Positions 25,896 through 27,284 of a stretch of 64,000 bases of DNA are shown here, one piece after another. Position numbers and translations under genes: made by a program. A model generated the notes under the pieces. The model worked only from the letters and a program-made list of their open reading frames with translations. It was not told where the DNA came from and searched no databases. The stretch lies in assembly GCF_013778305.1 (NCBI RefSeq), contig NZ_JACEIC010000001.1, forward strand, positions 682,001-746,000, in the 5' to 3' direction. Every line of letters starts with the position of its first letter. The first letter of the stretch is position 1. This DNA is from Nocardioides agri (GTDB lineage Bacteria > Actinomycetota > Actinomycetes > Propionibacteriales > Nocardioidaceae).

Positions 25896-27284
25896 GTGGT
25901 CCTGGTCGGGGCATCGGGCTCCGGCAAGTCGACCTGGGCCGCGCAGCGCTACCGCGCCGAGGAGGTCGTCTCCTCCGACGCGCTGCGGGGCGTCGTGGGG
26001 AGCGGGCCGCACGACCTCGACGCGTCTGCCGAGGCCTTCGACATCCTCGACCGCGTCGTCGCCGCGCGACTGCGCCGCGGCCTCACCACCGTGGTCGACA
26101 CGCTGGGCCTCGACGAGGGACGGCGTACGGCGTGGTGCACCGCCGCGCGCGACGCCGGCCTGCCGGCAGTCGTCGTCCTGCTCGACACTCCCCCGGACGT
26201 CTGTCGCCGCCGCAACCGCGCGCGGGACCGGCCGGTCCCGGCGCCGGCGCTCACCGCGCAGCTCGGGAAGGTCAGCGCCCTCGGCGCCGCCCTCGACCTG
26301 GAGGGGTGGGACATCGTCCAGCGCGTCGCCGGACCCGGTGACGAGCCCGACGGGATACCCGAGCGCCCGGACCGGCCCACCGGGCGGCGCGACGAGCGGC
26401 GCAGCTCCCAGGGACTGCGGTTCGTGCTGCAGGTGAGCCGGTTCCCGTGGGGAGAGGCACCGGCCGGCTGGCTCTCGGCGGTCGCGACCGCCGCGGACGA
26501 GGCGGGGTTCGCCGGGCTGGCACTGATGGACCACCTGATCCAGATCCCCCAGGTCGGTCGCGCCTGGGAGCCGATCCCGGAGCCCTGGGTGACGCTCGGC
26601 CTGCTCGCCGGCCTCGACACCGGGCTCGAGCTCGGCACCCTCGTCACGCCGGTGACGTTCCGTGCCCCCGGCATCACCGCCAAGGCGGCCGCCACCCTCG
26701 ACGCGCTCAGCGGCGGCCGCGCGTTCGTCGGTCTCGGGGCGGGGTGGTGGGAGCGCGAGCACGCGGCGTACGGCCTGTCCTTCCCGCCCGCCCGCGAGCG
26801 CCTCGACGACGTCGAGGCAGCGATCGCCACGATGCGCGCGCTCTGGGCACCGGGGACCAAGGCGGCCGCCGGCCTGCCGGAGACCACGGGCTACCCGCGC
26901 CCGGCGCACGACATCCCGATCATCCTGGGCGGCGCCGGCGCTCGGACGCTGCGGATCGCGCGCCGGCTCGCCGACGGCGTCAACGTCGCGACCGGCAACG
27001 TGGACCGGGCCATCGCCGCGCTCGAGGGCACCGACGTCACGATCACCGTGCTCGACCTGCCCACGATCGGCCGGGACCGCGAGGACACCTGGGCGCGGGT
27101 CGAGCGGCTGCGCGGCAGCACGCCCGCGGCGGCGTACGCCGAGCGCACCCATGCGGGCACCCCGGGCCAGCAGCGCGACCGGTACGGCGCACTGGCCGAC
27201 CGGGGCGTCGACACCGTGTTCGTGGCGCTCGCCGACCTGGCGGACGCGGCCGACCTGGAGCGCCTCGCGCCGCTGACTACTTGA
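25896..27284 (+). CDS. Fusion of P-loop kinase and LLM (luciferase-like) oxidoreductase
   Basis: A 462-residue protein with two domains in one unbroken frame. Residues 1-150 are a P-loop kinase: Walker [16 protein letters not shown] (about residues 5-19), a [10 protein letters not shown] segment and [20 protein letters not shown], as in polynucleotide-kinase and zeta-toxin-like proteins. Residues ~170-462 are a luciferase-like oxidoreductase that may use F420 or [73 protein letters not shown] and [20 protein letters not shown]. The GTG start is 33 bases after the previous stop; the frame continues upstream without a better codon. No substrate is evident. Confidence 0.85.

Follow-up and report, generated by a model that had tools for sequence, protein, structure and literature searches.

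Can a P-loop kinase and a luciferase-like (LLM) oxidoreductase be parts of one bacterial protein, and what would such a protein do? The question is raised by a reading frame on the plus strand of the window, by which we mean the whole 64,000-nucleotide stretch of Nocardioides agri DNA analyzed here, taken from a 4.79 Mb genome assembled in 5 contigs. The frame, 25896-27284, has 462 open codons, and its translation carries the motif GASGSGKST near the start. A first-pass annotation proposed that it encodes a nucleotide kinase joined to an LLM enzyme that uses F420 or FMN. Pnkp-type kinases, the type to which the first domain proves to belong, act in nucleic-acid end repair, and F420-dependent LLM enzymes act in small-molecule redox. 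The features of the locus are listed here, with residue numbers (K17, D34 and so on) counted from the L codon at 25878.

25159..25863, plus strand: Lys/Ala/Pro-rich histone-H1-like protein, upstream; its stop codon TGA overlaps CTG 25860
25860..27284, plus strand: entire fusion gene, running to the stop from CTG 25860, the likely start that lies furthest upstream
25878..26330, plus strand: Pnkp-type P-loop kinase domain (AAA_33), by profile, sequence and fold matches
25908..25934, plus strand: Walker A motif, with K17 at 25926-25928; K in 33/33 fusion and 18/18 Pnkp rows
25977..25988, plus strand: D34 and R37; same residues in 33/33 fusion and 18/18 Pnkp rows
26211..26225, plus strand: lid arginines R112 and R116; same residues in 33/33 fusion and 18/18 Pnkp rows
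26331..26405, plus strand: interdomain linker, limits approximate; low pLDDT and few conserved columns
26406..27281, plus strand: LLM TIM-barrel domain, nearest NCBIfam family TIGR03560, by profile and fold matches

Two Domains in One Reading Frame

Both Pfam domains score far above their gathering cut-offs in the one uninterrupted frame, as the first-pass annotation had it: AAA_33, a P-loop kinase family, at residues 2-123 of the 462-codon frame (E 4e-24, 86 bits against a cut-off of 27), and Bac_luciferase, the LLM family, at residues 194-429 (E 4.5e-30, 105.5 bits against 27.9). By GC content at the three codon positions, 0.815/0.556/0.947 in the kinase half and 0.767/0.575/0.952 in the LLM half, both sides of the junction are coding-like in a single frame. 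Opposite the fusion gene, on the minus strand at 25374-27152, lies an open frame of 592 residues, which is probably a by-product of the 72% GC content of the window; protein conservation sits on the plus-strand frame, not on this one.

Structure prediction for the full chain, suggested as a check by the first-pass annotation, gave two mostly confident domains and a flexible linker, with a mean pLDDT of 87.2 and values below 50 at LLM residues 223-230 and in the linker, at model residues 154-169. The pTM of 0.63 leaves the position and orientation of the domains relative to each other free. The junction had been placed near 26400, and a linker is indeed found there, although it is a stretch of low pLDDT that extends from about 26331 to 26405 rather than a point. 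About 15 residues of the second half of the barrel, around 26985-27040, are absent from the window protein by comparison with the consensus of 39 homologs. Most homologs have these residues, the clade of the window protein is without them, and three homologous genes (L038, L039 and L093) are likewise short, at 456-463 codons.

Conservation and Distribution of the Fusion

Scanning one genome for each species gave 79 loci; the kinase part, too, is matched at 67 of them (L038-L104), and the other 12 (L105-L116) match the LLM part alone. Of the 67 kinase-bearing loci, 58 have a fused frame that stays unbroken for 440 codons or more, and in the remaining 9 the frame is broken or truncated. The nearest named relatives are Nocardioides, and named genera with unbroken copies include Nocardioides, Terrabacter, Phycicoccus, Pedococcus, Knoellia, Janibacter, Intrasporangium, Jiangella, Microlunatus and Pseudonocardia. 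Each of the 39 homologs that were aligned matches the two Pfam domains at E 0.001. The fusion is patchy even within the genus, with 40 of 196 genomes carrying it, 33 of them in one frame from residue 1 to at least residue 395 with no internal stop and 7 in broken or partial form; these counts are not independent of those from the per-species scan, as the two overlap in species.

A sample of 396 genomes from the phylum separates the fused kinases from their relatives. The kinase domain alone matches 41 of these genomes at E 1e-12. The ten best matches, 47-100% identical and with the window's own genome included, all carry an LLM domain within the frame of the kinase, and none of the next 20 kinase loci examined has one; 14 further kinase match rows, which have no locus, stand outside these 30. 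Seventeen of the 20 loci lacking an LLM domain are long frames and three are short (186-269 aa). Ten of the 17 long frames were scanned, and every one is a Pnkp, at 991-1090 bits against a family cut-off of 750.

The fusion is therefore real and conserved across several actinobacterial lineages. The possibility that an assembly error or a frameshift joined two genes may be set aside as having almost no chance of being right: errors or decay do occur in the family, as the 9 broken or truncated loci among 67 attest, but the fusion is unbroken in the other 58 and present in 10 of 10 carriers from the phylum sample, and this conservation already refutes an artifact. The first-pass annotation had named a sequencing error, or homologs encoded as two separate genes, as grounds for abandoning the idea, and neither is borne out. 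The only locus that appeared split at the linker is L096 (G053 by coordinates), from Nocardioides alpinus; we rejected it, the one of the nine broken or truncated loci examined closely, as a natural two-gene version, since its three-frame translation reads as a frame break inside a conserved LLM stretch. The broken or truncated loci are L088, L090, L092, L096 and L100-L104, some of them cut by contig ends, and at least one (L088, from Nocardioides ungokensis) lies in a complete genome. Such frames suggest that the gene is decaying in some lineages or that the sequence contains errors.

To judge by these searches, the fusion is an undescribed combination of two known domain families. Within the open-license PMC literature, with domain-architecture databases outside the scope of the search, no paper was recognizable by its title or the start of its abstract as describing a kinase-LLM fusion, and the passages of PMC6279831 consulted mention no such fusion.

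A Probable Non-canonical Start Upstream of the Annotated One

The GTG at 25896, taken as the start in the first-pass annotation, is probably too late by 10-12 codons. The six residues LPDPAL, encoded just before it, are conserved in the homologs (identical in 37 of 58, differing at one or two positions in 20, and unlike in one, L089), and because of this conservation we place the true start, probably, some 10-12 codons upstream. No ATG, GTG or TTG occurs among the 200 in-frame codons examined upstream of GTG 25896 in the window. The other candidates are CTG 25860, which overlaps the TGA stop of the upstream gene, and ACG 25866, at codon -10.

The window is one of 7 loci among 59 with no ATG, GTG or TTG within 20 codons upstream. 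ACG stands at -10 in four of the seven (the window, L039, L040 and L093), with an in-frame CTG just before it in three of the four; the other three (L064, L069 and L099) have an in-frame CTG, plus a GTG 36-37 codons upstream. In L093, neither the open frame upstream nor the domain's first 12 codons contain a canonical start, and L039 has none between codon -148 and the same position. The window gene therefore likely uses a non-canonical start, CTG or ACG. A likely non-canonical start is also seen in L039, L040 and L093, near 4950-4983 of their loci.

The Kinase Domain Is of the Polynucleotide Kinase Type

The solved structure closest in sequence to the kinase domain is that of the Clostridium thermocellum Pnkp kinase domain (4gp6, E 1.1e-22). 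The domain was folded alone (pLDDT 95.3) because the best 50 fold matches of the whole model are all LLM structures, and the resulting model superimposes on Cth Pnkp with Z 24.1, at 1.2 Å over 151 residues and 35% identity. Next come T4 Pnk (Z 16.3), mammalian PNKP (16.1) and PSTK (15.7). What had been called a nucleotide kinase is thus a P-loop kinase, as proposed, but the label was imprecise, since by sequence and by fold the domain is of the polynucleotide kinase (Pnkp) type.

The catalytic residues of CthPnkp, which we take to be Lys21, Asp38, Arg41, Arg116 and Arg120, correspond to K17, D34, R37, R112 and R116 here, and all five are identical in every fusion row (33/33) and every Pnkp row (18/18), where the 17 genome rows labeled Pnkp comprise 10 confirmed by profile scan and 7 labeled by frame length only. 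The fusion kinase therefore has in common with bacterial Pnkp (TIGR04075; structures 4gp6 and 4mde) both the fold over the whole kinase domain and these presumed catalytic residues. It differs in its surroundings, as bacterial Pnkp has phosphatase and ligase parts that the fusion lacks, with the LLM domain in their place. The window protein reaches 107 bits against TIGR04075, whose cut-off is 750, and covers only profile positions 6-156 of 851, so that a full-length match failed. When 54 kinase domains are placed in a tree, all 33 from fusions make up one side of a branch with support of 100/100, in a bootstrap that had not fully settled; by this tree, the fused kinases are a clade of their own, apart from Pnkp.

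The fused clade also departs from Pnkp near the acceptor site. Consistent differences are found at G41, S42, G43, L47, T75 and L76, in stretches that span window residues 41-47 and 75-78, together with a one-residue gap in the lid. Because these residues beside the catalytic ones differ consistently from those of true Pnkp, a small nucleoside- or sugar-like acceptor would be preferred over a nucleic-acid end. Speaking against a purely small-molecule acceptor, two presumed nucleic-acid contacts of CthPnkp, Arg123 and Val129, invariant in the Pnkp rows (18/18 each), are kept in most fusions (27/33 and 22/33, respectively).

A serious rival reading makes the protein a true kinase of 5'-OH polynucleotides or of tRNA ends, whose redox partner, the LLM domain, would act on a nucleobase or a damaged end. 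We regard it as doubtful, if the strongest of the competitors. Polynucleotide kinases, followed by a tRNA kinase, are the best fold matches of the kinase alone, the presumed nucleic-acid contacts are mostly retained, and the LLM fold includes RutA (Z 26.5), which acts on uracil. Yet the residues near the presumed acceptor site are altered as a group, the chain carries no phosphatase or ligase partner, and no neighboring gene is common across lineages.

The LLM Domain and Its Likely Cofactor

Which of the two cofactors named in the first-pass annotation, F420 or FMN, serves the LLM domain can be addressed by family and by fold. NCBIfam ranks F420-labeled families first, with TIGR03560 at the top; the window protein scores 169.1 bits against it, under the curated cut-off of 231.4. 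TIGR03560, the Rv1855c-type class of F420 LLM oxidoreductases, is the closest NCBIfam family of the LLM domain and is matched in 39 of 39 homologs, but its members are unfused, unlike the window protein. The fold comparison ties the two cofactor classes: among the best 50 matches of the whole model, F420 and FMN enzymes both score Z 26-28. Among them are two structures of FGD1, 3c8n (Z 27.1, 22% identity) and 3b4y (Z 26.5, 21%). The F420-dependent sugar-phosphate dehydrogenases Fgd and Fsd share the LLM barrel with the window protein, but belong to a different LLM subfamily (the window protein scores 62.8 bits against TIGR03557 and 33.4 bits against TIGR03554) and have no fused kinase.

The closest unfused LLM proteins are 38-47% identical in the phylum sample and 40% in the genome of the window. 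In a tree of LLM domains the fused rows fall in two groups, but a single clade is not rejected (p-AU 0.32); since the fused kinases form one clade at 100/100, a single fusion event appears likely from the two trees.

F420 Biosynthesis Genes in Carrier Genomes

The genome of the window has both CofH, the FO synthase, and CofD. CofD is over its cut-off in all 10 carriers of the phylum sample, and CofH is matched at E 0.001 in only three, leaving seven without it. Across that sample, genomes with no CofH match at E 1e-80 (163 of 396) were counted as lacking it, and the 45 that match at E 1e-80 but under the cut-off (233 genomes versus 188) as having it. Within the CofH-less set, CofD is present in 7 of 7 carriers versus 5 of 33 non-carriers drawn at random from 156 (Fisher p 4e-5, with shared ancestry uncorrected and four of the seven carriers from one genus-level group). 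Almost every carrier tested has thus retained the phospho-tail step of F420 synthesis, while many seemingly depend on an outside supply of FO or on an unrecognized enzyme for it.

The genus gives a flatter picture. At E 1e-80, 12 of the 40 carriers lack CofH, as do 35 of the 156 other genomes, so that carriers and non-carriers do not differ (p 0.31). Of the 47 CofH-less genomes, 43 match CofD at E 1e-40 (41 over the cut-off), including 11 of the 12 carriers; the one CofH-less carrier with no CofD match is a genome that is 69% complete. CofD is thus near-universal in the genus and therefore uninformative there about the fusion. F420 dependence in the form of strict co-occurrence with FO synthase was rejected, given 7 of 10 phylum-sample carriers without CofH and the genus p value of 0.31, and since these seven and 12 of the 40 carriers in the genus lack CofH, the use of F420 cannot be taken as secure. 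CofD without CofH is found in the seven CofH-less phylum-sample carriers (G280, G281, G292, G372, G503, G512 and G581) and in the 43 genus genomes, as well as in 5 of the 33 non-carriers sampled from the phylum. Such CofD-only genomes may live on salvaged FO or have an unrecognized FO synthase.

The CofD pattern favors F420 use, short of proof, and by family ranking together with CofD co-occurrence we favor F420 over FMN as the LLM cofactor. The converse, that the domain is an FMN (reduced flavin) monooxygenase with the kinase still acting on the substrate, strikes us as quite unlikely. It draws on the absence of CofH from 7 of 10 phylum-sample carriers and on the FMN-dependent SfnG, which at Z 27.8 shares the top of the fold comparison with F420 enzymes; it has against it that the top sequence families are F420-labeled and that CofD occurs in 10 of 10 of those same carriers.

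A different link between kinase and cofactor would be phosphorylation of FO (or riboflavin) at the ribityl 5'-hydroxyl, which would supply FO-5'-phosphate to the LLM domain. FO-5'-phosphate prepared in vitro is reported to serve F420 enzymes (PMC8498797, PMC7820951), and its acceptance as a cofactor analog makes a deazaflavin kinase conceivable; several carriers, moreover, keep CofD without FO synthase, so that FO may be scarce and salvaged. FO-5'-phosphate is termed an unnatural cofactor there (PMC8498797, PMC7820951), however, and the carriers' CofD already handles FO, while the sequence gives no pointer to a flavin acceptor. We consider such an activity very improbable.

Gene Neighborhood

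No lineage-wide operon partner was found within 5 kb of the fusion, the most common neighbor cluster occurring in 17 of 68 loci. Neighbors were defined by rough gene calls from GC frame and by BLASTP clusters, and because these calls recover the fusion itself in only 56 of 68 loci, neighbor sharing is underestimated. The neighbors are lineage-specific. A galactokinase and acyl-CoA dehydrogenases adjoin the window gene and its Nocardioides relatives, and beside a Terrabacter copy lie genes for a PadR regulator, a histidine-kinase-like ATPase and a DUF5926 protein. The galactokinase (23881-25059) was rejected as a partner, its cluster, in 16 of 68 loci, being taken as local synteny. A role in anti-phage defense was also set aside, as PADLOC gave only weak matches, the best (E 5.8e-7) to a generic oxidoreductase model. 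The protein encoded immediately upstream (25159-25863) has a weak, sub-threshold match to HC2, a histone H1-like family (33.4 versus 40 bits), and translational coupling between it and the fusion gene is possible.

The lack of a partner gene and the patchy distribution (40 of 196 in the genus) would suit a kinase domain that is an NTP-binding sensor, regulating the LLM domain with no phosphorylation. We hold this to be improbable, because the presumed catalytic residues beyond the Walker A motif, too, are invariant in 33 of 33 fusion rows.

Proposed Function

Our preferred but tentative reading, which falls short of an even chance, is a conserved, putative bifunctional enzyme that couples a kinase to F420-type redox, with a small nucleoside- or sugar-like acceptor preferred. 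The Pnkp-type kinase would phosphorylate a ribosyl- or sugar-like acceptor at a primary (5'-type) hydroxyl with the gamma-phosphate of an NTP, the LLM domain would act on that substrate, or on its product, by F420-dependent hydride transfer, and one chain would thus couple phosphorylation with redox. The phosphorylated substrate or cofactor-linked step envisaged in the first-pass annotation is plausible by analogy; a phosphorylated substrate is so because Fgd and Fsd are F420 LLM enzymes that oxidize sugar phosphates (PMC8498797). A further and more novel reading, in which a Pnkp-type 5'-OH kinase and an F420-dependent oxidoreductase act on the same nucleotide-like substrate as a redox-coupled enzyme for processing nucleic-acid or nucleotide ends, we think unlikely; no paper on such a coupling was found in the open-license PMC literature.

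A fusion kept stably in several actinobacterial lineages implies that its reaction calls for phosphate transfer as well as hydride transfer. If the acceptor were a nucleic acid or a deazaflavin, F420 would gain a new role. The protein is compact, at about 462-474 residues, which makes its phosphorylated and reduced substrates directly testable.
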